From Gammaproteobacteria bacterium (GTDB lineage: Bacteria; Pseudomonadota; Gammaproteobacteria; Arenicellales; Arenicellaceae), in contig JAFMHC010000006.1 in assembly GCA_017854775.1 (NCBI GenBank), positions 1-56,753 of the forward strand: a DNA stretch of 56,753 nucleotides, given 5' to 3'. The notes beneath the pieces are model-generated. The model ran no database searches, was not told the DNA's origin, and worked only from the letters and a program-made list of their open reading frames with translations. Made by a program: the position numbers and the translations under genes. Positions 22,985 through 52,514 of the stretch are shown here, in pieces (positions within the stretch are counted from its first letter, which is position 1; every line of letters starts with the position of its first letter).

Positions 22985-23977
22985 GTGATCACATTTGAGC
23001 TATTACAGAAAGTAAGTCCAGCAGCACTGGAGTTGCGAGCGAAGCCTGAGCAATTGGATACGGCACTAAATCCTAATATTGATCGGATTATTGTAGAGGA
23101 AATAGTTGACCTTGAATCGACCACCTCTGATAGCCCTGCGACTATTCGAGCTGAGTCTTATCACTCTCGTTTTTTTTCTAATTCAGAACATCGTTTTAAG
23201 GAATTAGAAAAGAGTTACGAACGGCTAAATCGACCGCAAGATTTAATCGTGATGATATGTTGTAGAAATCATTTTCAGTTCCTAAAGCTTTGGCTCGAAT
23301 CCTGTGATAAAAATAAAATTCCAGTGCGTGATCGAACGCTCGTTTTTACGCTAGATGATGAAGCTGAGTCACAAACAAAACTTCTAGGCCTTGAAAGTTA
23401 TCATTTTGACGCTAATCGCTATGAAAGCGGAGGCCAGTCAGATAATTTTGGTGATCCAAACTTTAGTGGGGCTATGTTTTATAAGAACGCGGCAATTTGT
23501 GAAAGCCTTAAATTGGGTGCCAATCTATTGTTTCAAGATGTTGATCTGATTTGGCTTAAAGACCCTCTGCCTTTTTTGACTAAGAACGACTTGGAGTCCG
23601 ACGTACAAATTATGTTTGATGGGCGGAATCCTTGGCACTACCCTTATTATGCTAACTCAGGCTTTATCTATATTCGCAACTGTAACGCTAGTAAAGCAGT
23701 ATTCGAGACAGCATTTCTCAATACGAGCAATATTTTCCAATGTGGTGGTCATCAATCACCACTGAACAGAATTCTTCACCATTTTGTTATACACAATGTA
23801 TTGAACTTGAAAATATTGCCAGAAGCGCTTTTCCTCAATGGTCATTTATTCAACCTCGAAATAGGTGTTCTGGAAAATGCGGGTGACTGGCAAAACAACG
23901 GTTTAGTTGTGCATTATTCATGGACTGGGAACTGTGGAGAAAAGACCAAGAAACTTGAAAAATTTAACCTCATTTAA
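22985..23977 (+). CDS. Nucleotide-diphospho-sugar transferase family glycosyltransferase
   Basis: 330 aa, starting at GTG. Residues 80-300 match the PF03407-type fold seen in plant and eukaryotic cell-wall glycosyltransferases. Markers are LIVMICCRNHFQFLKLWLES, the metal- and sugar-nucleotide-binding DVDLIWLKDPL (DxD), ANSGFIYIRNC, and QCGGHQSPLNRIL. The protein has no signal peptide and would act in the cytoplasm. It opens the glycosylation island and is 11 bp from the epimerase gene, so they are co-transcribed. Confidence 0.8.
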   Translation: MITFELLQKVSPAALELRAKPEQLDTALNPNIDRIIVEEIVDLESTTSDSPATIRAESYHSRFFSNSEHRFKELEKSYERLNRPQDLIVMICCRNHFQFLKLWLESCDKNKIPVRDRTLVFTLDDEAESQTKLLGLESYHFDANRYESGGQSDNFGDPNFSGAMFYKNAAICESLKLGANLLFQDVDLIWLKDPLPFLTKNDLESDVQIMFDGRNPWHYPYYANSGFIYIRNCNASKAVFETAFLNTSNIFQCGGHQSPLNRILHHFVIHNVLNLKILPEALFLNGHLFNLEIGVLENAGDWQNNGLVVHYSWTGNCGEKTKKLEKFNLI

Positions 23978-23988
23978 TCTGACTCAAT

Positions 23989-24960
23989 ATGAATGATAGA
24001 AAAACAGCATTAGTGCTAGGTGCAGGAGGCTTTATTGGTACTCACCTTGTAACAGATTTAAAGCGACAGGGTTTTTGGGTTCGTGGCGTAGACATAAAAC
24101 ACCCTGAATACTCTGAAACCGATGCTGATGAATTTATCATTGCAGATTTGAGCACTGAGGCAGGTATGGCTGCTGCGATGGATCGCATTTTTGACGAAAC
24201 CTACCAGCTGGCAGCCGACATGGGAGGAGCGGGGTATCTCTTTACTGGAGAGAACGATGCCCAAGTCATGCGCAACTCATCATTAATCAACCTGCAACTT
24301 CTGAAGGCACTAGAGCATCATCAGGCAACGAAAGTTTTCTATGCCTCGTCTGCGTGTGTTTATCCAGAGCATAATCAAATGAGCTCTGATTCGCCGACTA
24401 TTGCTGAAGATACTGTTTACCCTGCCGCCCCTGACAGTGACTACGGCTGGGAAAAACTCTATGCCGAGCGTTTGTATCTTGCGCACGTTAGAAATAGTTC
24501 GCTGGATGCCAGAATCGCTCGATTTCACAATATTTTTGGGCCAATGGGAGCGTGGGATAATGGAAAAGAAAAAGTACCGGCTGCTATTTGTAGAAAGGTT
24601 GCACAAGCAACAGAGGGCGGCTCTATTGATGTTTGGGGCGACGGCAAACAAACACGGTCTTTCTTATTTATTGAAGACTGTCTAACGGCGGTGCGTAAAT
24701 TAATGGACTCAAATGTTGGTGCCCCAATCAATATAGGGTCATCTGAAATGGTGAGTATTAATCAACTGGCTGACAAGGTTATTTCGATTTCAGGAAAATC
24801 ACTCACAATAAGTCATATTGAAGGGCCTCAAGGAGTGAGGGGCCGTGGTTCAGACAATCGATTGATTGAAGCGTCATTAGATTGGCGGCCACAAGTTCCG
24901 TTAAATGATGGTTTGCGGACAACTTATGCTTGGGTAGATAAAATGGCAAACATTGATTGA
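23989..24960 (+). CDS. GDP-mannose 3,5-epimerase-like NAD-dependent sugar epimerase
   Basis: 323 aa, extended SDR. It has an N-terminal Rossmann GAGGFIGTHL. QLAADMGGAGYLFTGENDA closely follows plant GDP-mannose 3,5-epimerase (AADMGGMGFI), and YASSACVYPEH is the catalytic Ser/Cys segment, followed by the YxxxK pair in YGWEKLYAERL. It should convert GDP-D-mannose to GDP-L-galactose or GDP-L-gulose, supplying a donor for neighbouring transferases. It follows the DxD transferase gene directly. Confidence 0.8.
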   Translation: MNDRKTALVLGAGGFIGTHLVTDLKRQGFWVRGVDIKHPEYSETDADEFIIADLSTEAGMAAAMDRIFDETYQLAADMGGAGYLFTGENDAQVMRNSSLINLQLLKALEHHQATKVFYASSACVYPEHNQMSSDSPTIAEDTVYPAAPDSDYGWEKLYAERLYLAHVRNSSLDARIARFHNIFGPMGAWDNGKEKVPAAICRKVAQATEGGSIDVWGDGKQTRSFLFIEDCLTAVRKLMDSNVGAPINIGSSEMVSINQLADKVISISGKSLTISHIEGPQGVRGRGSDNRLIEASLDWRPQVPLNDGLRTTYAWVDKMANID

Positions 24961-25025
24961 TTAGTTCAGCACAGGGTTTGCAAGGGGTCATGTCAGTCAA
25001 GGTTCAGCTTGACGCGGTATTTTGT

Positions 25026-26255
25026 TTAGCAAGCAATCCAAAATAATGGGTTTTCCCTTAAGTAATCTCGGCCTCTGAAATGCTCAACAAGGGTCGGCTC
25101 TGGTAGCTCAGAATAAGTTTCACTATGAAAATATAAGTCCTGATCTGTTGCAAGCATATAGCCCCGTAAGCGATTAATGTATGACGTGAATGTGGATAGG
25201 TCTGTACCAACAAAGCGTCTCGCCGCTGCGCAAATTATTTGTTCTAAAGGACCGATCCATGCGTATGGTATTGGTTCTTTAATCACTGCCTCAACATCCT
25301 TCCAGCTCAATATTCTTGGAGCATTAAGGCCAATTGCTAATTCGTTAAAAATCTCTTCTCGATCTTCGTCAGTGGCGATATAGATAGGCAGGTTTTCATC
25401 AAATAATAAGCAGACATTATCACAAATCAATTCAGTGCCAATTTGTGTTTCTGTGTATTGAAAATCATTACGACGAACGTGCATAGCATCGAAAGATTCA
25501 ACTCCAAGAGCATTGATGATCTTGTTTGCGAAGTGAAAAATTTCTTCATGGTAACGAATATGATGCTTAATGAAACGCCGTGAAATACTAGGTAAAGCGT
25601 CATCAGCGCTAGCTAGCATTGTGGCAACTGGACCTAGTGAACGATATTTGGTTGAGCATGGAAAATACAGTACGGGAGCTGCATTCATCCAGGGGCTGAA
25701 CTCGACCTGTTGCCTAGAGTCGAGATAGGCTTCTTGCATGTGGGGGCCTGCTTGAGCTGACTCAATATCAGGGTAACAAATGACGGTGTCGTATGGATTC
25801 CAGCCAGGAATTTCAGTATTTTCGAGTAACCATAATTCCCAAGCTTTATTCGTTTCAATGCAGGTTTCAAGCCATTTATTTGCATCATAAAATTCCGTTG
25901 GAATATTCAGATGTGTCTTTGCTGCATCAATGAATTCAGTCGTACTTAGTACTGGGATGGCTTTGCCTAATGCGGCCGTGTTGAAAAGGTCGGAAAATTC
26001 GGTGGTTCCTCCCTGATGTTCTTCAGGGAGTGGGCCATGATTAATTAGGTACCATGAAGAGCGTGGAGGTAATACGATAGTTCGACCGGTAATTGCGGCT
26101 AATGCTGCAACGTATTCAAATGCTAAGCGAACATTATTTAGACCGCCATGATCTGCGTCAAACAGGATATATCGATTTGCTCGCGACTGCGGTAGTTGAC
26201 CCTCTATTAATGATTCATTCCAATATTCGAGATTATTTTGAAGTAGGTTTGGCAT
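25026..26255 (-). CDS. O-fucosyltransferase-like (GDP-fucose protein transferase family) protein
   Basis: 409 aa. The N-terminal GGLNNVRLAFEYVAALAAI with TGRTIVLPPRSSW is the glycine-rich GDP-binding opening of the O-FucT superfamily (PF10250). A His-Arg-Arg-x-Asp motif near residue 260 (FDAMHVRRNDFQY) corresponds to the catalytic H-x-R-x-D region, and RFVGTDLSTFTSYINRLRG matches the C-terminal signature. Eukaryotic relatives put fucose on Ser/Thr of secreted proteins. It is on the opposite strand within the island, with its own promoter in the 102-bp gap before the methyltransferase. Confidence 0.75.
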   Translation of the reverse strand: MPNLLQNNLEYWNESLIEGQLPQSRANRYILFDADHGGLNNVRLAFEYVAALAAITGRTIVLPPRSSWYLINHGPLPEEHQGGTTEFSDLFNTAALGKAIPVLSTTEFIDAAKTHLNIPTEFYDANKWLETCIETNKAWELWLLENTEIPGWNPYDTVICYPDIESAQAGPHMQEAYLDSRQQVEFSPWMNAAPVLYFPCSTKYRSLGPVATMLASADDALPSISRRFIKHHIRYHEEIFHFANKIINALGVESFDAMHVRRNDFQYTETQIGTELICDNVCLLFDENLPIYIATDEDREEIFNELAIGLNAPRILSWKDVEAVIKEPIPYAWIGPLEQIICAAARRFVGTDLSTFTSYINRLRGYMLATDQDLYFHSETYSELPEPTLVEHFRGRDYLRENPLFWIAC

Positions 26256-26357
26256 AAATAGAAATTGATTATGTTCGCGCTCAAGAGAATAATGCTAGGC
26301 GAGCAACCTTACTATATTCACCACATTGAATAAACATAAATAGACTATGGTGCACCT

Positions 26358-26981
26358 ATGAATAGTGGTTTTGACGAAAACAATATGAACATTCAAGAAG
26401 GTCACTTGGGAGGTTATATTAAGAGCAGTCAAGAAATAGCGCCCTCTGGCTTGGATATTTTCCATGGTGATCCCGAAACATGGAGCCCATCACTATGGCT
26501 ATGGTCAATGAGCGCGCTTAACATCCGATCTGTTCTTGATATTGGTTGTGGTGAAGGGCATTGTGCTGCGTTTTTTCGTAATTATGGATGTGACGTGCTG
26601 GGTATTGACGGTAGCGAGCTGGCACTGAGGGATAGTCAAATTCCAAAACACCATAGGCAGCATGATTTCACCAAGGGCGCCTACCTTCCAGATAGACAAT
26701 TCGATATGGTTTGGTGCTCAGAATTCGTTGAGCATGTTGACGAAGAATACACACATAATTTCCTGCAAACCTTCACTTTTGCGAGCCGATATATTCTGAT
26801 GACGTTTGCTGAACCGGGGCAAGTAGGTTGGCATCATGTTAACTGCCAAAAACAGGCTTATTGGGAACATAAACTAGACGGTGTAGGTTATCGGTTAGAC
26901 AATCAGCTAACCAGTTTTGCTCGTCAGGCGGCTGGCAGTGGCCATTTTTTACGTGCCGGATTGGTGTTTCAGAAGAAATGA
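26358..26981 (+). CDS. Class I SAM-dependent methyltransferase
   Basis: 207 aa. Motif I is VLDIGCGEGHCAAFF, motif II ends in VLGIDGSELA, and FDMVWCSEFVEHVDE is the post-motif pattern of type-11/12 methyltransferases. C-terminal part ends AGLVFQKK. The target is unknown; in this island a sugar or the glycoprotein itself is plausible (inference). Confidence 0.8.
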   Translation: MNSGFDENNMNIQEGHLGGYIKSSQEIAPSGLDIFHGDPETWSPSLWLWSMSALNIRSVLDIGCGEGHCAAFFRNYGCDVLGIDGSELALRDSQIPKHHRQHDFTKGAYLPDRQFDMVWCSEFVEHVDEEYTHNFLQTFTFASRYILMTFAEPGQVGWHHVNCQKQAYWEHKLDGVGYRLDNQLTSFARQAAGSGHFLRAGLVFQKK

Positions 26982-27160
26982 ATTGTGCGCCTAAGGCGTG
27001 ACTTTTTTAAGGCTGCTTAAAGCGTTGGCAGATTTACCATATTCCCAGTTTGATGATTGCTTAATGCTATCATTGGCCGCAATGTTAAAGGCATGAATGC
27101 TTGAATTTAATATTCATTCGTTAAGTCTTATTAGAAATGACAAATAAACAGTCCTAAAAT

Positions 27161-30100
27161 ATGATTTATACCGTTGTTTGCACAGATACTAACGATTACA
27201 TTGATTGGCAGTTTGAGCTGCTTGAATACTCATGGAGCCGGATTCATCAACCTGGCAAGCTGATTCGCCTCGTTGCTTGCGACGATGATGCCGACCTGCC
27301 GATCCATAAACATGCTGAAGTTTTTCGGACTCGCCCTACAAACGTACACCCTGAGAGTGGTGATGTGTATGTTTGTTATAATCGCTTGTACTCGTTAAAA
27401 CAGTGGCTTGAGGAAGAAGATATTCAGGGCAGCATTTTAATTGTTGATGCTGATGTTGTTTTTAGGTCACCGGTTAAGACAACCGTTCAAAAAGGCCAAC
27501 CGTTAGGGCAGCATTGGCTTGACTACGGTTTGGGGGAAAATTTTAGAGCAGCGCTGGAAGGGTCAACCGAGGTTGATCTCAACACCTTACAGCCCGTGAC
27601 TTGGCCAGCATTGATCGATGCCGATGATTTGCGCGAGCTATTACCTCGCTGGATTGAATTAACCGTTTTAGTTCGTGCACAGCTAAAAGGCCAAGAAAGC
27701 GACATGTTTGCTTTTTTAGTTGCTGCGAAAGAACAAGCCTTGAAGTTTGAGCTGGGTACAACCACGGCCTTTATGCCTTGGCCTGATGAGCAAGTAGCGG
27801 GGGCTCCAATTATTCACTATTGTCAAATAGTTGAAAAGGAAGATGGTAGCCACTTATGGTCTAAGCAGCGCTATAAGCCTTGGGAAAGAGTGCCTCATGC
27901 CGAGTCGGCCAAGTTGCCTTATTGTCGAGACCTTATCGCACTAGTCGATGAATTTGCACGACTAAAAAACTTTGAAGCTGAGCATCATTCGGATACCATA
28001 TTTATTGCTCTTGCTTCTTACTGTGAACCAGAACTGGTCGACACCATTGAAAGTTGTTTACAGAACGCGCGCCATCCAGAAAACCTTCGATTCGGTATTT
28101 GTCATCAATTCGACAATACTAATGAACTAACCAGTGAAACTTGCCTTGACCAATTTTCGCAAGACACACGTTTCAGATATGTTGTGTACGACCATAAGCA
28201 ATCGCAAGGAGGCTGTTGGGCGAGAAACATTGCACAACAGCTTTACGCTGATGAGACCTATACTCTGCAAATAGATGCACATACACAGATGATTGAATCT
28301 TGGGATTCAATCTTAATTGAGATGTTGCAATCATTACCGTCTAAAAAACCATTAATTACCCAATTTCCGCCGCTGTATTCGATAGAGAAAGGAACTAAAG
28401 AGTTTAGACATCTCGATGACTTATCTCAGGTTAATACAGCGATAGCAGAGACTTGGACTGACGATGGGTGGTTACACCATCCTCAGAAGTTGATCCCTGA
28501 AAATAATACTTTCCCACGTTATAACAGAGTGTTATCTGGTGCTTTTGTATTCACCACCGGCGAATGGAATGAGGTAGTAAGACAAGATCCAAAACATTTT
28601 TATACAGGTGAAGAATTTGCCTTGGCCGTCCGGTCGTATACACATGGCTACGATTTATTCGACCCAAGTCAAATTGTTTGTTGGCATCGATTACACCCTT
28701 CTGCAAATCGCAAATATTGGGATGACAATAGCGATGACAAGTCCGCGTTTCGGCATAAACAGGCGATTGATCGATTAGGGCTACTGTTAGATGGTGACGT
28801 TGATAATGAATTAGGGCGTTTTGGGTTAGGTAGTGAACGTAGCCTAGAAGACTATAAGCAGTTCTCAGGCATTGATTGCATTAACAAATCTATTGATGCT
28901 GATGCGGCTAACGGCGCCCAGCTTGTTCCTAATACTGTTGAATGTAAAGATAACTCAGTCGAACAACATCCACCGCTCTGTGATAATAATACGATGATTG
29001 ATGTCACTATACATTTAGCTCATAAAGAGCCGATCTTAGTTAGTTGCACAGAAGACACCCCCGTATTGGTGAGTTTGTTTCAAGGATTAAGAAACAGGTC
29101 TGTAAGGCCCGATGATGTGATTTACCTAAATATTGGAGATCAAGACTCTATATTCTTCAAGCAGTCGCAACTTGTCGCAATTGAAACGTCACCTACGCTG
29201 AGTGATGGTTTTTTCAGCGAACTAGCGGCTCTCAACGACGCTGCTGTGGCTAATCAAGCTATTGCTGAATCAGAACAGCAGATATTTTCATCAAACCAGA
29301 CTATTCAAATACCTTCTGCACAGACTCCCTCAGTATTAGGTGGAGAAATAAGCGACGATTGGAAAACTTGGATATGGCACAACGTGGGGCGCGGCTGCTC
29401 AAAGGACGATATTTTCAAGCAATTAGTCGAGCACGGCTTTCCTATGAATGTGGTGAAGGTTGAGCTTAATTACGAGCCATCCGTACCGCTAGACCAAATA
29501 GTTGTGGGCGAATTGACTCACCAAAACGAGTTTGAGTATCAAGCAAACTCAGTGGCATGCCAAATTGAAAGCGACGAGCTTGAAATTTATTCGATAGATA
29601 ACTTTTTAAACCAACAAGAATGTCAGCAGTTAAGTGAGATGATCCTTGCTAATTTGCAACCCTCAACTACCGTTGCTAAAGATGGTTCAAACAGCGGGCG
29701 AACCAGTAGCACCTGTTTTTTTGATTTAAACAATTCGCAGCATGGTTTAGCCGTCAGTATATCTGAGCGAGTTTCTCGTTTAATTGGCATCAACCATAAT
29801 TACGCAGAACCTATTCAGGGTCATGTATACAGCCCAGGTGAGGAATATAAGGCTCATCAGGATTGGTTTGAGCCAGGCACTCCCGAATTTGAATCTCTGG
29901 CTAATGCAGCAATGGGCGGTCAACGCACTTGGTCGGTTATTATTTATTTGAATAGCGTTGAATTAGGTGGAGACACTGTGTTTGAGCGTGCTGGGGTGAC
30001 CGTGCACCCAGAGCTGGGCAAAGTCGTATTTTGGAATAACCTTACGGGCGATGGGGCCCCTAACAGAAACGCGTTACATCAAGCCTGCGCTGTTGAGCAA

Positions 30101-30763
30101 GGTCAAAAAATCGTTCTGACACTGTGGTATCGCACTTTTGGTCAAGGCCGGATGTATACGCGAGAACCCTATGAATTGGTTCCGACATTCACTGAACCTG
30201 GAATTCAATTAAAAACAATGTCTGAGTCATTATTTCAAGCATTGTCTGGATTTTATCGAAAGTCGCAATCGAGTGATTTTCGAGATGAACATGTTGATGG
30301 TGGCTACCTACAGAACAATACAGGGAACAACCCAAGCTCATTAATTACGCTCCCAGACAATCTGCAACAAGCTGTTATTAGTGAATTGTTGCCGGTTTGT
30401 GAGGAGTGGAGTCAGCAGGAGCTTGATTGCACTTCTCTTTATGGCATTCGTGTCTACCATCGTGGCGCTTCCTTGCGAATGCATACCGATACTGGGCGAT
30501 CGCACATAATCAGTGCTATTTTAAATATAGCGCAAGACGTTGATCAAGATTGGCCATTAACGATTGAAGACCATATGTTTCGTCGCCACTCGGTCTTTTT
30601 AAAGCCCGGAGAGATGCTTTTATATGAGAGTTCAAGGCTTGCTCATGGACGCCCTGACCCACTGCAGGGCAAGAGCTTTGCCAATCTTTTTGTGCATTTC
30701 TGCCCGAAAAACTACAATATCCCCGAGCTTGTTGAGTCTATGAAGGAGATCGAATATACCTGA
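27161..30763 (+). CDS. Multidomain glycosyltransferase / prolyl-4-hydroxylase fusion, 1200 aa
   Basis: Domains in order. About 1-270: a transferase resembling plant peptidyl-serine galactosyl- and hydroxyproline arabinosyltransferases (WQFELLEYSWSRIHQPGKL; acidic IVDADVVF at 93-100). About 278-565: GT60-like domain related to Dictyostelium Skp1 GlcNAc-transferase (IALASYCEPEL, GGCWARNIAQ, QIDAHTQ with DAH at 372-374). 613-680: small beta domain shared with the gene at 31597. 731-775: helical W-x2-W segment. 806-1000: 2-oxoglutarate/Fe(II) prolyl-4-hydroxylase domain with His899, Asp901, His973 and Lys983. 1020-1185: a second such domain with His1108, Asp1110 and His1162. No signal peptide. 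Predicted to hydroxylate proline and glycosylate the product in the cytoplasm. Confidence 0.8.
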   Translation: MIYTVVCTDTNDYIDWQFELLEYSWSRIHQPGKLIRLVACDDDADLPIHKHAEVFRTRPTNVHPESGDVYVCYNRLYSLKQWLEEEDIQGSILIVDADVVFRSPVKTTVQKGQPLGQHWLDYGLGENFRAALEGSTEVDLNTLQPVTWPALIDADDLRELLPRWIELTVLVRAQLKGQESDMFAFLVAAKEQALKFELGTTTAFMPWPDEQVAGAPIIHYCQIVEKEDGSHLWSKQRYKPWERVPHAESAKLPYCRDLIALVDEFARLKNFEAEHHSDTIFIALASYCEPELVDTIESCLQNARHPENLRFGICHQFDNTNELTSETCLDQFSQDTRFRYVVYDHKQSQGGCWARNIAQQLYADETYTLQIDAHTQMIESWDSILIEMLQSLPSKKPLITQFPPLYSIEKGTKEFRHLDDLSQVNTAIAETWTDDGWLHHPQKLIPENNTFPRYNRVLSGAFVFTTGEWNEVVRQDPKHFYTGEEFALAVRSYTHGYDLFDPSQIVCWHRLHPSANRKYWDDNSDDKSAFRHKQAIDRLGLLLDGDVDNELGRFGLGSERSLEDYKQFSGIDCINKSIDADAANGAQLVPNTVECKDNSVEQHPPLCDNNTMIDVTIHLAHKEPILVSCTEDTPVLVSLFQGLRNRSVRPDDVIYLNIGDQDSIFFKQSQLVAIETSPTLSDGFFSELAALNDAAVANQAIAESEQQIFSSNQTIQIPSAQTPSVLGGEISDDWKTWIWHNVGRGCSKDDIFKQLVEHGFPMNVVKVELNYEPSVPLDQIVVGELTHQNEFEYQANSVACQIESDELEIYSIDNFLNQQECQQLSEMILANLQPSTTVAKDGSNSGRTSSTCFFDLNNSQHGLAVSISERVSRLIGINHNYAEPIQGHVYSPGEEYKAHQDWFEPGTPEFESLANAAMGGQRTWSVIIYLNSVELGGDTVFERAGVTVHPELGKVVFWNNLTGDGAPNRNALHQACAVEQGQKIVLTLWYRTFGQGRMYTREPYELVPTFTEPGIQLKTMSESLFQALSGFYRKSQSSDFRDEHVDGGYLQNNTGNNPSSLITLPDNLQQAVISELLPVCEEWSQQELDCTSLYGIRVYHRGASLRMHTDTGRSHIISAILNIAQDVDQDWPLTIEDHMFRRHSVFLKPGEMLLYESSRLAHGRPDPLQGKSFANLFVHFCPKNYNIPELVESMKEIEYT

Positions 30764-30766
30764 GGC

Positions 30767-31234
30767 TTATGTAGTACACCCACCAGAACCACCAGAGGGA
30801 AGATTAAATACGCTTTGGTTGCTTCCATTAGCTACTGTTACTTGCAAATCACCACCAACGATCTGGCCAGATACCGTATAAACTGGATACGCATTATTGG
30901 CTGTATTAAATGCAGAAAATACAACAGCAGAGAAACTGCTTCCATTCCAGGCTGCGCTTTGAGTTACAACACCTTCAAGTGTCACCTCTGCGATATTGCC
31001 TGCAATACAGACATTAACATTAACCATACCATTTGGTGATAAACCACCTGTACCTGGAGGAGCCGCTGTCGTAGGTGGCGTTGTCGTTGGTGCTGAAGTC
31101 GGTGAGAATGTCGTAGGTGCTGAAGTTGGTGAGAAAGTCGTTGGAGCCGAAGTCGGCGAAAATGTCGTTGGTGCCGAAGTCGGTGAAAATGTCGTTGGCG
31201 GTGAAGTGGGTGCTGAAGTAATAATGGTAGGCAT
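30767..31234 (-). CDS. Pro/Thr/Ser tandem-repeat protein, candidate substrate of the neighbouring enzymes
   Basis: 155 aa. Residues 1-65 are almost only Pro, Thr, Ser and Ala, with four copies of the nonapeptide PTTFSPTSA; prolines follow Ala, Ser or Pro, as in plant arabinogalactan glycomodules. Residues 70-155 form a small beta-rich domain (NVNVCIAGNIAEVTLEG, YTVSGQIVGGDLQVTVANG) ending SGGSGGCTT. I see no family name and no signal peptide of its own. The gene converges on the 1200-aa hydroxylase/transferase with only 3 bp between them. A 59-aa leader-like ORF lies 57 bp upstream. A role as O-glycosylated substrate is inference. The frame has no shadow gene opposite it. Confidence 0.65.
   Translation of the reverse strand: MPTIITSAPTSPPTTFSPTSAPTTFSPTSAPTTFSPTSAPTTFSPTSAPTTTPPTTAAPPGTGGLSPNGMVNVNVCIAGNIAEVTLEGVVTQSAAWNGSSFSAVVFSAFNTANNAYPVYTVSGQIVGGDLQVTVANGSNQSVFNLPSGGSGGCTT
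31091..31201 (-). repeat. 27-bp tandem repeat coding for the PTTFSPTSA nonapeptide
   Basis: About four units of 27 bp (for example GCTGAAGTCGGTGAGAATG followed by TCGTAGGT on the plus strand) with mainly silent third-position differences. This indicates selection on the protein repeat rather than very recent slippage. Confidence 0.85.
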
Positions 31235-31291
31235 GATGATATTCTCGAAATTATTTCTATTTCTATAAGACGGTGAGTGCTTGTGCTATGG

Positions 31292-31471
31292 CTATACAGG
31301 TATTGGGCCGGTGCCATTAAAAGTCAATAACACGCTCATTTGTGCGTGAGCAGGCACTACAACAGATTGTACTACTGCATTTGTCCATTTACTTGGGAGC
31401 ACTTGACTAGCGCCAATTACGCCGCCGCCAACTAAAATTTTACGTAAACTATCTCGTTTCTCTTCGCTCAT
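31292..31471 (-). CDS. 59-aa leader-like peptide with a LPSKW...VVVPAHA signature
   Basis: Short ORF from ATG 31471 to TAG 31292, preceded by AGGTAAAG. The N terminus has charged residues (MSEEKRDSLRK), then a hydrophobic core ILVGGGVIGASQVL, then PSKWTNAVVQSVVVPAHAQ. That last pattern (W, two hydrophobic positions, VVxPAHA) recurs as the export leader of many small proteobacterial secreted proteins. Only 14 residues follow AHAQ. The twin-arginine is KR..R here, not RR. It could be the leader of the repeat protein separated by a 57-bp interruption, or an independent small secreted peptide. Confidence 0.6.
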   Translation of the reverse strand: MSEEKRDSLRKILVGGGVIGASQVLPSKWTNAVVQSVVVPAHAQMSVLLTFNGTGPIPV

Positions 31472-31596
31472 AATCTTTACCTAGGTATTGCTTGTACTCC
31501 TTCAAGTAATGCACCAAAGAAGTTATAGTTAGTCGCTCCTATCAGTATAGATAACTTAGTTCCATTTTGGTATTACATATTTGATTAAAAACCTAT

Positions 31597-32769
31597 ATGT
31601 ACATTTCAGCAATAAAAATTAATATGAACCTTCTCGTTCTTACAAGCCCAGATCTACTTTCCAGCCCATTAACAGCGTTCATGGCTAAGCAGATGTCAAA
31701 CCACATTGGACCAAGCCGCATTCCAATTCCCGGTTTAGCGTCTTCATCCATTAGTTATAAGTTTAGAGAGCTGCACAATCGACTACTCAAGGAGCAACAA
31801 AAAACATGGTACCAACTGGCTTCCACGCCACATGAGCTTTTGAAAAAAAACGATGTCGTCGAGCAGTTAAACGATATTGTTTCGAAACTCGGAGACTCAT
31901 CATCGGTCATGATTAATGACCCCCTGTTGTGCTTCTTCTTACCACTATGGGAATCGCTGGATGAGTCGCTTGTGGTCGCGTTCTACTATAGTGACCCGCT
32001 TGAATGTGCGATTGATTTGCAGAAAAAATGGCGATTCCCTTTGAGCTTTGGTCTTGCGCTGTGGGAAAGTTATGTCTTGGCGGCATGTAGAAATATTAAC
32101 GGCACGCCACATGTGCTTATGTCAGCCAATAAATTACGACAATCTGGGACAACACATCTGCGCGCTATATCCAAAGAGTTCGCAGCTCTGGGCGAAACAG
32201 ACTTAAGTAAAAGTATTATCAAATCGCTTAAAGACCTGCCAGAAACGCCTACATTAAATGTGCATTCTGCCGCGCAGTCTGAATGGCTGCAATCACCCCA
32301 ATTCGAAATATTCAAACTTTTGGAACAAGGTTCTTTGCAATCACTTGCCCAGCGCGACATTTCTTATCAAAGTGCCGATATTCTAGAAAAGTATGGTCAG
32401 TTAAGGGCTGGATTTGAATTGACACAAAAAGCGCTTGAGGATACGCAAGCCAAACTTGCACGTGCCGAACAAAAACAGAGTTTACCGAATTTTACTGATT
32501 CAGAAGCTGAAGTAAAACCAGAACATGAAGTAAGGCTAGATCATGGCCAACGTTCTCGGGTAACAATTCATTTACGGGATATCCCTTCATTGAAATTTCA
32601 TTGCGAAGCAGACGCACCAATATTGAACGTGTTGCGTGATCATTTAGTTAATAACACACATAACGAAATGATTTATTTAAACTGTGGTGAAACGCAAGCT
32701 GACGAAGCCATTTATTTTATGTCTTCGGATCTGCTTTCAATCGAAATAGAAAACGAAAAGTCACACTAA
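31597..32769 (+). CDS. Sulfotransferase-like protein with a C-terminal domain shared with the 1200-aa enzyme
   Basis: 390 aa (start could also be the ATG at 31624, MNLLVLTSPDLLSSPL). The core resembles bacterial sulfotransferases: NDPLLCFFLPLWES, then AFYYSDPLECAIDLQKKW and FPLSFGLALWESYVLAA. But the N-terminal phosphosulfate loop (usually GMHRSGTS) is replaced by TSPDLLSSPLTAFMA. Residues 240-295 look coiled-coil. Residues 320-386 are a small beta domain starting RVTIHLRDIPSLKF, similar to residues 613-680 of the 1200-aa enzyme (DVTIHLAHKEPILV). It is 13 bp before the GT60-like gene and likely in the same transcript. Confidence 0.65.
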   Translation: MYISAIKINMNLLVLTSPDLLSSPLTAFMAKQMSNHIGPSRIPIPGLASSSISYKFRELHNRLLKEQQKTWYQLASTPHELLKKNDVVEQLNDIVSKLGDSSSVMINDPLLCFFLPLWESLDESLVVAFYYSDPLECAIDLQKKWRFPLSFGLALWESYVLAACRNINGTPHVLMSANKLRQSGTTHLRAISKEFAALGETDLSKSIIKSLKDLPETPTLNVHSAAQSEWLQSPQFEIFKLLEQGSLQSLAQRDISYQSADILEKYGQLRAGFELTQKALEDTQAKLARAEQKQSLPNFTDSEAEVKPEHEVRLDHGQRSRVTIHLRDIPSLKFHCEADAPILNVLRDHLVNNTHNEMIYLNCGETQADEAIYFMSSDLLSIEIENEKSH

Positions 32770-32782
32770 CTCGACGGCTGAT

Positions 32783-33928
32783 ATGGATCAAATTTTTGTA
32801 CAAATCGCGTCATATCGCGATGCTGAATTACCTAGAACAATAAGAAGTGCTTTATCCGCCGCCAAATATCCAGGCAGAATAACCTTTGGAATTTGTTGGC
32901 AGTACGATGAGACAAGCTATCTTGATTTGGATGAGTTTGTTGACGATCCTCGCTTTAGCATTACTCAAGCATACTATGAAGACAGTCGAGGCTGCTGTTG
33001 GGCACGAAACCAGACTAATTTGCTCTACAGTGGCGAAAAATACACTTTGCAGATTGATGCACACACGAGGTTTGCGCGTGACTGGGACGAGCGGTTCATT
33101 AGCATGCTGCAAATTCTAGATAGTGAAAAGCCAGTGCTTAGCACCTACCCTGCACCGTTTGAATATGTAGACGGTATTGAGCATCGTTATTCAGATCGAG
33201 GCATGCAACGCTTGAGTATGAATCGTATGCGTAAGAATTTAACGACTATATTTAAGTCAGAGATTGTTGTCGATCGATCACAGCCGGCTCCCAGCCAATT
33301 TCTAGCGGCGGGTCAAATTTTCACATACGGCAGTTTCTGTGAAGAGGTTGAGTATGACCCTGAGTTGTATTATTCCGGCGAAGAAATTAGCCTGTCGGCG
33401 CGAGCATATACTCACGGCTACGATTTTTATTGCCCGAATGAAGATTTGCTTTGGCACTTGTACCAACATTCAATGCCAGTACACAGCGTTGATCATCAAG
33501 ATAATCAAAATGATGCCGCCATCGAGAGACTGCATACTTTGTTTATTGAAGATCATACTAAACTTGGGAAATACGGTTTTGGAGAGGTGCGTTCGTTAAT
33601 GGACTATGAAAAAGCGGCTGGCTTGGGTTTTAAGGAGCGATTAGAAAGAAAACCTATAAAAACGCATCTGAAAAAGGCTATTAATCTAAACCTGTCAAAA
33701 ATTGAAGAACGTGCTGACTATGATTATTGGATCTTTACACTGCATGACATTGATGACCAAGAAATATATCGCAGAGATCTAAGCCCTGATGAAATTCCAT
33801 CGCATGAATCATCAACAATTGAGCTGGATATTGAATTAGTTGATGAGCCCTTTAGTTATGGGATATGGCCACATACACCAACGCATGGTTACCTTCCCAG
33901 ACACTTCGAAGATTTACGATTTTGTTGA
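32783..33928 (+). CDS. GT60-like (Skp1 GlcNAc-transferase family) glycosyltransferase
   Basis: 381 aa. FVQIASYRDAELPRTIRSAL opens the fold; RGCCWARNQTNLLYSGE and LQIDAHTRFARDWDE follow, with the metal-binding Asp-Ala-His. FTYGSFCEEVEYDPELYYSGEE and ISLSARAYTHGYDFY are the acceptor and catalytic blocks. This matches the middle domain of the 1200-aa enzyme throughout and the Dictyostelium enzyme that puts GlcNAc on hydroxyproline of Skp1. The C-terminal 100 residues (ADYDYWIFTLHDIDDQEIY) form an extra beta domain. A second stand-alone copy suggests a second step or second target. Confidence 0.85.
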   Translation: MDQIFVQIASYRDAELPRTIRSALSAAKYPGRITFGICWQYDETSYLDLDEFVDDPRFSITQAYYEDSRGCCWARNQTNLLYSGEKYTLQIDAHTRFARDWDERFISMLQILDSEKPVLSTYPAPFEYVDGIEHRYSDRGMQRLSMNRMRKNLTTIFKSEIVVDRSQPAPSQFLAAGQIFTYGSFCEEVEYDPELYYSGEEISLSARAYTHGYDFYCPNEDLLWHLYQHSMPVHSVDHQDNQNDAAIERLHTLFIEDHTKLGKYGFGEVRSLMDYEKAAGLGFKERLERKPIKTHLKKAINLNLSKIEERADYDYWIFTLHDIDDQEIYRRDLSPDEIPSHESSTIELDIELVDEPFSYGIWPHTPTHGYLPRHFEDLRFC

Positions 33929-33939
33929 TTTTGAGTGCA

Positions 33940-34824
33940 CTAATCAAAGACATCTGTATTTTCAAACAACCAATCTTCGGCTAAGACAAAGCTTTGCGCA
34001 CGCTGGTAATTATCTTTGACCCCGGCCATACGACTTAAATATTGCTCTTGGGTTAATTCCCCAAGAATTTTAAATAACTCTTCCAGCGTTGAAAAATGAA
34101 TGATGCCATCTGAATTAAAAAAGTCATCTATTTTTTTCGTGCCGTAGTAAATTGGGATAGTGCCGGTCACAAAGCAATCAATAATTTTCTCGGTAAAATA
34201 AGTGTCTATTACACTGTTTTCCACCACCACTTGAAACATGTAATCTTTAACGCTGTCCAATTTGTACTCAACGTAATTACTTGCAAGAGAGCCGTACAAA
34301 TCCATTCGAACATCGTTCAGCAATGCTCTGCTCCAGTTTTCACGGCTCTTGCTATAAAGGTTATAAATAGCGTGTCTCATTATATGGCCTGACACGTTCA
34401 TTTGTTTTTCTGAAGAAATAAATGAGACAAGTTTGGTTTTGTTATAGAGCTGAAAATCAGCTCGTTTAATCAAGCAGTTACAATGAGGGTAAAAGGTGGT
34501 TTTTTCTGGAAACTGGTCAATGAAATCTTGATTGTGAGTGAGGATGCGATCAAACACATCAATGTTATTTTCAAGAAACTCATAGGTCTGTGGCGCTATA
34601 TACCGGGATTCGACAATAAACGCTATTTTTTCCGCACAGTCATGGTTTAGAGCGTGTGTTAACTCGGAATCAGTATAAAAAACTTTTTCATCTTTGCCTG
34701 GTTTTGGGTGGGGGTCTGAGTAATAACACCTGCGAATATCCCACTCCATGTGCTGCGAGTCATTGATTGATTCCCAGGTATATTTAACCCAATGTAAATG
34801 CGTATATAGTTTGAATTTTTTCAT
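33940..34824 (-). CDS. GT10-type (alpha-1,3) fucosyltransferase-like protein
   Basis: 294 aa. The C-terminal half carries VVVENSVIDTYFTEKIIDC and FVTGTIPIYYG, the hallmark of GT10 fucosyltransferases (E-N-S...Y-x-T-E-K-I...G-x-x-P-I-Y-x-G). This binds GDP-fucose or a related GDP-sugar. The N-terminal half is divergent (HLHWVKYTWESINDSQHM). With the GDP-mannose epimerase in the island, the donor might be GDP-L-galactose rather than GDP-fucose (inference). It ends 11 bp from the GT60-like gene, convergently. Confidence 0.85.
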   Translation of the reverse strand: MKKFKLYTHLHWVKYTWESINDSQHMEWDIRRCYYSDPHPKPGKDEKVFYTDSELTHALNHDCAEKIAFIVESRYIAPQTYEFLENNIDVFDRILTHNQDFIDQFPEKTTFYPHCNCLIKRADFQLYNKTKLVSFISSEKQMNVSGHIMRHAIYNLYSKSRENWSRALLNDVRMDLYGSLASNYVEYKLDSVKDYMFQVVVENSVIDTYFTEKIIDCFVTGTIPIYYGTKKIDDFFNSDGIIHFSTLEELFKILGELTQEQYLSRMAGVKDNYQRAQSFVLAEDWLFENTDVFD

Positions 34825-34885
34825 TCTTTTGTTGATTCTAGCTCTCTCTAGTAAAGACCGGCTTAAGCCAACTCTTCAACAAGAC

Positions 34886-35617
34886 CTAATATTGAGATGC
34901 AAAGTCAAAAATCATTTTGGTCTCTTGGTCAAAACATGCATACGCAGCACCCTGCTCCGCAGCAGGCAGTGTTCCAACGTAATCCCATAGTGACGTGAAA
35001 CCTGCTGGGCCTTTTTCGCTACCATGCCAATAACCGTTACCCCACCGATAGATATAACTTGGGCGTAATGCCGTTCCGTAATAAGTACCTTTGCCTGAAG
35101 CTTCTAAGAGTGAATCCCTAAATTTCAGGTCAAATGCGAGTTCAGTTGTTTGTGGGTATCCCCCAACCTCTTCAAATAGCCTACGAGTAAAGCGCCAGCT
35201 CGAATGAAAAAAGCCGTTTGTGTCTTCAGTTTGAGCGCATCCGAAAGCTTGGTTGTGAGTATTCCAAACCTTTTCTGGAATATAGAATTCACTCTGTTTT
35301 TTCAAGTGACATTCAGCCACACTGCTTAAATTCCACGGTAGAAAAATATCATCGTCTTCCCAGACTGCAATTACGTCACCAACACAAAGACTTATCAGCT
35401 GATTGAATTTTTCGGGCAAATTAGGAAAACGAACGTTGGTTGAAATCACTCTCCAGTTTGCACCCTCGGATTCACTAAACTGGTTCGCATCATCTAATAC
35501 GATAAGTTCACAACGGTCCTTCGGATAATTCTGGGCCTCGAAACAGGCGATCGCATTGCGAAGTAACTCAGGTCTTTTGTAAGTCGGGCAAACACATGAA
35601 ATAAAAGGTAACGACAT
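34886..35617 (-). CDS. GT2-family glycosyltransferase
   Basis: 243 aa, GT-A fold. The N-terminal PFISCVCPTYKRPELLRNAI and ELIVLDDANQ bind the nucleotide, and AVWEDDDIFLPWNL holds the D-x-D metal motif. It has no membrane segment and is short, so it is a cytoplasmic single-domain enzyme. It is the first gene of a two-gene minus-strand unit with the GT10-like gene and closes the island on the right. Confidence 0.85.
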   Translation of the reverse strand: MSLPFISCVCPTYKRPELLRNAIACFEAQNYPKDRCELIVLDDANQFSESEGANWRVISTNVRFPNLPEKFNQLISLCVGDVIAVWEDDDIFLPWNLSSVAECHLKKQSEFYIPEKVWNTHNQAFGCAQTEDTNGFFHSSWRFTRRLFEEVGGYPQTTELAFDLKFRDSLLEASGKGTYYGTALRPSYIYRWGNGYWHGSEKGPAGFTSLWDYVGTLPAAEQGAAYACFDQETKMIFDFASQY

Positions 35618-51629: not shown

Positions 51630-52514
51630 CTAACCTAAATAAGTGCATGTCACATCAATTCGGCCATGACCTAATTCTTGAGAAATGATTAGCCTCGCCT
51701 TCAAAACTAGTTCTTGCTCTAGTTGAGTCAGTGTTGGTTTTTCACCGTCACATAACATTGGCGGCATAAGACCGTTACTTAATACAATGTAGCGCTGCTG
51801 TGCATAGTAATAGCGCAATCCATGTGCCTGCCTAATTCCAGCAATACCCAAGTGATGGTCTCTATGAGAGAGATACTGTCTATAAGTCATCTTTGCGGGA
51901 ATTAGCGATGCATTTTGATTTAGCGCTCCAATCTCTTTAAGTAATTCTCGTTGACCAGCAGTGGTAATAGGGATTGATCGAGCGCGGCCTCCTTTAGTCC
52001 AAGACTTTTTAAGTTCAACGCGGTCTTCTTTGATCGCCTTAGCTGGAATAAATTTGGCGGCCTCCTCTCGTCTCAATCCGAATTCTTGCTGTAAGCGAAG
52101 ACTAATCTTTAGGTGGTCAGGCAACTTACTAATTTGATGGTCGGTCAATTTAAATGCTTTGTTGTAGCCTGGCAGCCGTTGGCGGTTTGGTATGCCGAGC
52201 GCTCTATTATCTTTTGGAATTACCCCCGACTTATTGATCTTACGCGCCCACCATCTCAAGGTTGCCATTCTGTTTTTAATGGTGCCAGGGGATATCAATT
52301 TGTTGGTCGACTTTGATGGCTTGGTAAGCCAATATTCTACAAGCGCTATAACATGCCTAGCCCCAAGCGATTTAGCACCCATATGTCTGTAGCCCAGCTC
52401 TTTGAGTTGTTCGGCAAACAGTTTTAGTTGCTTCTTTCTTTGCGCTTGCGTGCCACGAGAGCCATCGTGGTTATGCTTGCAAAGGCCTAATAATTCATAA
52501 GTTAATTTGTCCAT
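51630..52514 (-). CDS. Tyrosine recombinase / integrase (Integrase_1 type)
   Basis: 294 aa. The N-terminal SAM-like core-binding domain is around LKLFAEQLKELGYRHMGAKSL. The catalytic domain has the first Arg in EFGLRREEAAKF, His-x-x-Arg as HGLRYYYAQQR, His in QELGHGRIDVT and the nucleophile tyrosine in CTYLG at the very C terminus. KSWTKGGRARSIPITTAGQ is the beta-hairpin with the catalytic lysine. Such recombinases are found on integrative elements and plasmids. It probably mobilised DNA in this region; a paired attachment site for it could not be fixed. Confidence 0.88.
   Translation of the reverse strand: MDKLTYELLGLCKHNHDGSRGTQAQRKKQLKLFAEQLKELGYRHMGAKSLGARHVIALVEYWLTKPSKSTNKLISPGTIKNRMATLRWWARKINKSGVIPKDNRALGIPNRQRLPGYNKAFKLTDHQISKLPDHLKISLRLQQEFGLRREEAAKFIPAKAIKEDRVELKKSWTKGGRARSIPITTAGQRELLKEIGALNQNASLIPAKMTYRQYLSHRDHHLGIAGIRQAHGLRYYYAQQRYIVLSNGLMPPMLCDGEKPTLTQLEQELVLKARLIISQELGHGRIDVTCTYLG

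Follow-up and report, generated by a model that had tools for sequence, protein, structure and literature searches.

Could a bacterium make a hydroxyproline-rich glycoprotein, given that glycans linked to hydroxyproline are a known feature of plants, green algae and protists? The question is raised by an island of genes at 22985-35617 in a stretch of 56,753 nucleotides, hereafter the window, which is a whole contig (JAFMHC010000006.1, our G000:C216; G-numbers designate genomes and L-numbers the loci compared) of the draft assembly GCA_017854775.1 (4.86 Mb, 381 contigs) of a gammaproteobacterium of the family Arenicellaceae. A first-pass annotation, made from the letters alone, had read there a system that hydroxylates the prolines of a mucin-like protein and builds a glycan on them with eukaryote-like enzymes. 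Every gene that it named lies at or inside these coordinates, with intact open reading frames (ORFs); a gene of the GT77 type (glycosyltransferase family 77) at 22985 and a separate signal ORF of 59 aa were absent from its list. Its interpretation is partly supported, and the observation is stronger than it could know, because the candidate substrate recurs with the enzymes in unrelated bacteria. On sequence comparisons we lean towards the view that the island makes a bacterial hydroxyproline-rich glycoprotein (HRGP), by the route of hydroxylation, glycosylation and export proposed below.

Domains of the fusion protein

The gene at 27161-30763 (forward strand) encodes a fusion of 1200 aa which joins, in this order, an HPAT-like domain, a GT60 domain, a linker, a prolyl 4-hydroxylase (P4H) domain and a C-terminal domain with an HxD...H motif. 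The HPAT-like domain (aa 4-220) matches PF23452 in Pfam at E 4e-8, with 38 bits for a cut-off of 23.9 and over profile positions 3-241 of 307. This model is matched by all seven HPAT-like domains of our profile set A5 (best E 3.7e-13), as the sole family at E<=0.001, which bears out the announced domain like the plant peptidyl serine/hydroxyproline transferases; among solved structures no HPAT relative was found in the PDB at E<=0.1. The GT60 domain (about 277-573) matches PF11397 at E 2.6e-49, its best stretch being aa 337-573, and a second GT60 enzyme encoded at 32783-33928 (forward strand) matches it at E 1.5e-58. With 169 and 199.4 bits respectively, for a cut-off of 21, the two GT60 domains of the first-pass annotation are both there.

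The P4H domain (about 803-991) matches 2OG-FeII_Oxy_3, PF13640, a model of 2-oxoglutarate (2OG) oxygenases, at aa 886-991 with E 4.9e-16. Full-length fusions exist in four further genomes of the same order, 49-51% identical to that of the window, and H899, D901, H973 and K983 are invariant across the five; we take the first three to be the iron ligands of the HxD...H motif and K983 to be the lysine that binds 2OG. Against the PDB, the profile of the P4H part (A7) gave nine matches at E<=0.001, every one a P4H entry, among them the Bacillus anthracis P4H 3itq (E 4e-40) and a Chlamydomonas enzyme (1.8e-34). When the 610 C-terminal residues were modelled with AlphaFold (pLDDT 77.5), the best structural match was the Chlamydomonas P4H solved with (Ser-Pro)5, 3gze (E 3.4e-16, TMt 0.82). 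Pfam, PDB profile and structure matches thus uphold the 2OG-Fe and GT60 calls. By family models and, for the P4H, by its conserved residues, the fusion carries an HPAT-family, a GT60 and one P4H domain; the latter would hydroxylate peptidyl prolines, and GT60, from a family match above cut-off, has the putative activity of transferring GlcNAc from UDP-GlcNAc to hydroxyproline or Thr/Ser.

The first-pass annotation spoke of P4H-type domains in the plural, of which only one is shown. The C-terminal domain (about 1010-1195, the last ~190 aa) keeps HxD...H in all 11 sequences compared. Only one of these 11 matches the 2OG model PF13640 (E 0.0012), hhalign gives a probability of 2.6% for its relation to P4H, and the PDB contains no convincing match, so that the proof by sequence of a second 2OG oxygenase failed. 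The same genome has a second pair of P4H and C-terminal domain on another contig, G000:C145 (L036, 3527-4969, reverse strand), with no repeat protein in the 12 kb read. Besides, a domain of ~65 aa is common to the linker of the fusion (aa ~612-680), the C-terminus of the product of the gene at 31597, L035 and L048; the Pfam scan of the window proteins assigned it no family, and it is perhaps a docking module.

The repeat protein and its counterparts

Convergent with the fusion gene and 3 bp from it lies, on the reverse strand, the ORF of the proposed substrate (30767-31234), 155 aa in which repeats are followed by a domain of ~90 aa. The repeats (31055-31219) are in tandem with a spacing of 27 nt, in 9-aa units of the PTTFSPTSA type, and correspond well to the Pro/Thr/Ser repeat protein first described. 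Just upstream on the same strand, the ORF of 59 aa (31292-31471; ...GGGVIGASQVLPSKWTNAVVQSVVVPAHAQ...) is signal-like and contains a PAHAQ motif.

Fourteen genomes proved to have an HPAT-bearing locus (in G103, L051 and L053 the HPAT match is cut by a contig end or reaches it). In 11 of them, from several phyla, a P/T-rich protein with a signal-like start, here called the partner, is encoded near the enzymes. Ten have it on the HPAT contig: the genome of the window, the gammaproteobacteria G036, G092, G041, G027, G039 and G478, and the genomes of L051 (Hyphomicrobiales), L052 (Myxococcales) and L154, the last from the order of the Acidimicrobiales genome G474. In the eleventh, G474 itself, the HPAT contig has no partner; those of this genome are encoded next to 2OG oxygenases on two further contigs, L145 and L146. 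The partner of L051 lies ~6 kb from the HPAT domain and 1.3 kb from an oxygenase of the C-terminal type; those of G039 and L052 are truncated where the contig stops, and the remainder of the latter is probably in L147.

Over the 251 kb of system loci, a fixed P/T/S criterion retained 15 ORFs, versus 3 over 263 kb of comparison loci, which were not drawn at random (high-scoring signal loci, cluster flanks, and P4H or GT60 homologue loci without HPAT). Partners account for twelve of the 15. Of the others, two in L049 seem to be out of frame, and the one in L147 is part of a long ORF that resembles an enzyme gene; the truncated partner of L052 missed the criterion. Among other proteins with the PAHA signal, 4 of 42 have at least 10 prolines in any 40 aa, and four single-ORF partners have 12-18, in a comparison where the G039 partner was missed by the search motif and two split partners carry their prolines in the second ORF. 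In each of 12 partners, the 60-aa stretch richest in proline has threonine as its second most frequent residue, alone or in a tie. A proline-rich substrate candidate, as expected of a system like the plant HRGP one, is linked to P4H and HPAT in 11 of the 14 genomes.

The first-pass annotation had made its reading depend on the conservation of the gene set, and this set, with a nearby P/T/S-rich protein, indeed recurs in unrelated bacteria. Among 15 related loci, homologues of the HPAT domain are present in 11, of the C-terminal domain in 9, of the O-fucosyltransferase-like (O-FucT) enzyme in 8 and of the P4H part in 7. Subsets of these loci have counterparts of the second GT60, the epimerase, GT77, the methyltransferase and the 31597 protein; GT10 has a homologue in one (L051) and GT2 in none of the 15. 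The system is rare. Within the order, 9 of 109 genomes have GT60. A sample of 369 genomes of the class yielded HPAT in the genome of the window alone; 282 genomes from the phylum to which G476 belongs yielded it in G476 alone, and 248 from the order that includes G474 yielded it in 3, G474 being one of them. This patchy distribution suggests horizontal transfer.

The PAHAQ-type signal is built of RR-L-L, GGG, W-x-x-P-V-V and L-P-A-H-A-Q, and is shared by sets of secreted-looking proteins. As 39 of the 109 genomes of this order have it, in as many as 20 copies, a signal dedicated to this system was rejected. With the model TIGR01409 of the twin-arginine translocation (Tat) signal, the partner of L145 scores 17.0 bits (cut-off 16.7) and that of L154 16.5, 0.2 below; the non-partner PAHA proteins L099 and L110 are also below the cut-off. 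Ahead of the Tat-like signal, the partner ORFs at 7680-8648 of L145, 3-1508 of L146 and 14911-15564 of L154 have a PqqD-like stretch, with matches below cut-off by Pfam (L145, L146) or NCBIfam (L154); in L051, the Hyphomicrobiales locus, two ORFs have PqqD domains. A link of these stretches to the leader recognition of ribosomally synthesized and post-translationally modified peptides is possible.

Other enzymes and candidate sugars

At the start of the island, the GT77-type transferase (22985-23977, forward strand) matches PF03407, Nucleotid_trans, at E 3.9e-22 and has homologues in L030, L031, L033 and L154; in plants, GT77 enzymes extend hydroxyproline-arabinosides. It is followed on the same strand, at 23989-24960, by a short-chain dehydrogenase/reductase that sequence comparison identifies by a wide margin as the GDP-mannose 3,5-epimerase previously named (2c59, E 1.1e-81, versus 1.9e-26 for the best other enzyme class), with copies 61-62% identical in L032, L033 and L048. 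It could plausibly supply GDP-L-galactose. The two enzymes likened to fucosyltransferases were well recognized, since they have Pfam matches: the O-FucT-like one (25026-26255, reverse strand) to PF10250 at E 3.5e-24, its nearest solved relative being POFUT2 (4ap6, E 8.8e-8), and the accessory GT10-like one (33940-34824, reverse strand) to PF00852 at E 9.7e-11. Fucose might be part of the glycan. Arabinose, which HPAT enzymes transfer as beta-L-arabinofuranose from UDP-Araf to hydroxyproline, is doubtful as the attached sugar and less likely than the name of the HPAT family suggests, because the RGP-type UDP-arabinose mutase was found in none of the 10 draft genomes tested out of the 14 with HPAT; we did not retain it.

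An S-adenosylmethionine-dependent methyltransferase (26358-26981, forward strand; Pfam E 6.8e-11) is 62% identical to a homologue in L030 and 56.5% identical to one in L053, an Acidobacteria locus. The product of 31597-32769 (forward strand), without Pfam match, resembles weakly a sulfotransferase: its model (pLDDT 65.7) gives 2z6v as best Foldseek match (E 8.2e-3, prob 1.00), none being found at E<=0.001. Its small C-terminal domain is the one found in the linker of the fusion, and it has homologues in L030-L033. Sulfation of the product thus has some support, from this fold and from PF03567 sulfotransferases in two related loci. The second GT60 transferase is 49-57% identical to its counterparts in five gammaproteobacterial loci, and an accessory GT2 transferase (34886-35617, reverse strand; Pfam E 1.4e-7) closes the island.

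The ten flanking ORFs tested all look bacterial, e.g. an MscS-type channel, an RtcR regulator, a TonB receptor and a PQQ dehydrogenase, so that a eukaryotic contaminant is an unlikely source of this contig. An integrase-like gene (PF12834/PF12835) is present at 51630-52514 on the reverse strand, 16 kb off the island.

Proposed route, alternatives and known systems

In the route that we propose, the repeat protein next to the fusion would be hydroxylated by the P4H domain on the prolines of its [A/S/T]-P-T repeats. The transferase domains of the fusion, HPAT-like and GT60, would add the first sugars to hydroxyproline or to nearby Thr/Ser. The GT77, second GT60, O-FucT and GT10 enzymes might then extend or branch the glycan, with GDP-L-galactose made by the epimerase as one likely donor, and methyl groups, perhaps also sulfate, would finish it. 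These modifications would occur in the cytoplasm, because the N-terminus of the fusion (MIYTVVCTDTNDYIDWQ...) shows by eye no export signal. The modified protein would leave by its Tat-like signal, provided in the window perhaps in trans by the 59-aa ORF.

Several observations weigh against this route. The repeat ORF of the window has no signal of its own, and TIGR01409 gives no match at E<=0.1 for its 59-aa ORF, nor for L048 and L051. No partner was seen on the short contigs of G103 (5.6 kb) and L053 (4.6 kb) or in the 14 kb read of the 21 kb of L153, nor in the GT60 loci without HPAT L118, L119 and L120. The same signal occurs on P/T-rich proteins away from HPAT loci as well (the 4 of 42 above), and the choice of the comparison loci was, as said, not random. 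Lastly the fusion of a P4H to transferases is no proof of an action on hydroxyproline, because GT60 enzymes also make mucin-type linkages.

The sugars might indeed be carried by Thr/Ser, in the mucin type, the hydroxylase having a separate role: this would be an O-glycosylation without hydroxyproline-linked glycan. Threonine follows proline in many repeats; GT60 includes the mucin-type GlcNAc transferases of Dictyostelium and Trypanosoma cruzi (PMC8724618, in the excerpt available), and GT95, the HPAT family, is related to GT96, a family of serine galactosyltransferases (PMC8012813, likewise in excerpt). We find this explanation rather unlikely, as five genomes encode the P4H and both transferases in a single fusion and its closest fold is that of an algal hydroxylase solved with (Ser-Pro)5. 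It seems to us improbable too that the cluster builds a surface polysaccharide or another glycan, the repeat protein being incidental and the oxygenases acting elsewhere. GT2, GT10, epimerase and methyltransferase genes are usual in polysaccharide loci. A solved bacterial P4H (5v7y, by its title) modifies EF-Tu. However, HPAT, GT60 and O-FucT enzymes act on proteins where their action is known (in part from excerpts of PMC8012813 and PMC8724618), and the partner recurs in 11 of 14 genomes; the P4H-homologue loci without HPAT match (L036, L037, L038, L040 and L041) hold in total, by the fixed P/T/S criterion, one P/T-rich ORF, that of L038, which is lipoprotein-like and ~6 kb away.

The substrate gene of the window could also be decaying, split by stop codons, and the island be a remnant, but of this we see very little chance. 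The signal and repeat ORFs share a reading frame and are separated by two TAG codons; the assembly is a draft of many contigs, and some other signal genes look broken: the one of L157 continues in another frame, the one of L160 has one in-frame stop. However, G036, from another family of the same order, has the identical two-ORF layout with both halves conserved, the repeat ORF at 37.5% identity over aa 44-153 and the signal ORF at 51% over 57 aa, tail included. Elsewhere too, short PAHAQ-signal ORFs end 14-23 aa past PAHA and are followed by a signal-less ORF resembling a mature part; in L116, L158, L159 and L161 this second ORF comes in frames 0, +1, +2 and 0, and in the window the enzyme ORFs are intact. 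Judged by eye, the layout is present in 6 of 18 regions (the window, L030, L116, L158, L159 and L161). Readthrough or recoding of the stop codons was first attractive, because the window, G036 and L116 are all in frame; it was dropped in view of frames +1 and +2 in L158 and L159. The varied frames fit two cistrons, and an arrangement of two genes with export in trans, as by a "hitchhiker", is possible.

To return to the hydroxyproline-rich glycoprotein, a bolder form of this reading could about equally well be right or wrong: bacteria scattered over several phyla would make glycoproteins with truly hydroxyproline-linked sugars, by means of an all-in-one cytosolic hydroxylase-glycosyltransferase acting on a dedicated repeat protein exported by Tat, with signal and cargo genes separate in some. 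The HPAT and GT77 of the plant route would be combined with the GT60 of the protist one, and these bacterial systems may be relatives or ancestors of both routes. If true, bacteria would make extensin- or mucin-like proteins, a single enzyme would both hydroxylate and glycosylate proline repeats, and this compact version would bear on the origin of the HPAT and GT60 families. Because a candidate substrate is encoded close by, the system can be tested directly.

In searches of the open-access literature, a scope outside which lie most subscription journals and bioRxiv preprints, no title or abstract among the matches listed describes such a bacterial cluster. Four known systems come closest to the island. 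For plant HRGP synthesis, an excerpt of PMC8012813 gives HPAT (GT95) and GT77 as acting on hydroxyproline. Like the plant and green-algal pathway, whose GT77 members are RRA and XEG113, the island brings together at one locus P4H, HPAT-family and GT77-type functions and a protein rich in SP/AP/TP; it differs in being bacterial, in uniting P4H and transferases in one polypeptide, in the addition of GT60 and O-FucT, in its enzymes without signal anchors (by eye) and in the RGP-type mutase being found in 0 of 10 genomes.

With the Skp1 pathway of Dictyostelium (P4H and GT60) the island shares the pairing of P4H with GT60, and the cytoplasmic modification that we propose would be as in this pathway and unlike the Golgi route of plants. 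Bacteria are not known to possess Skp1; at variance with that pathway, the target that we propose is a repeat protein that is exported and offers many sites, and an HPAT-like domain is present. In Dictyostelium and Toxoplasma, the Skp1 pathway also has cytosolic enzymes and enzyme fusions, and the GlcNAc transferases of Skp1 and of the mucin type are related, both belonging to GT60 (PMC8724618, in excerpt). The association of GT60 with a P/T-rich mucin-like protein recalls the mucin-type alpha-GlcNAc initiation of T. cruzi and Dictyostelium, from which the island differs by being bacterial and by its prolyl hydroxylase fused to a transferase. Lastly the Bacillus anthracis P4H, of a collagen-like protein system, is a bacterial P4H of the same fold; its reported targets include synthetic Pro-Pro-Gly peptides (PMC8968730, in excerpt). 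Its solved chains count 216-226 aa and are not fused to HPAT or GT60, unlike the fusion of the island, where hydroxylase and both transferase domains share one polypeptide.

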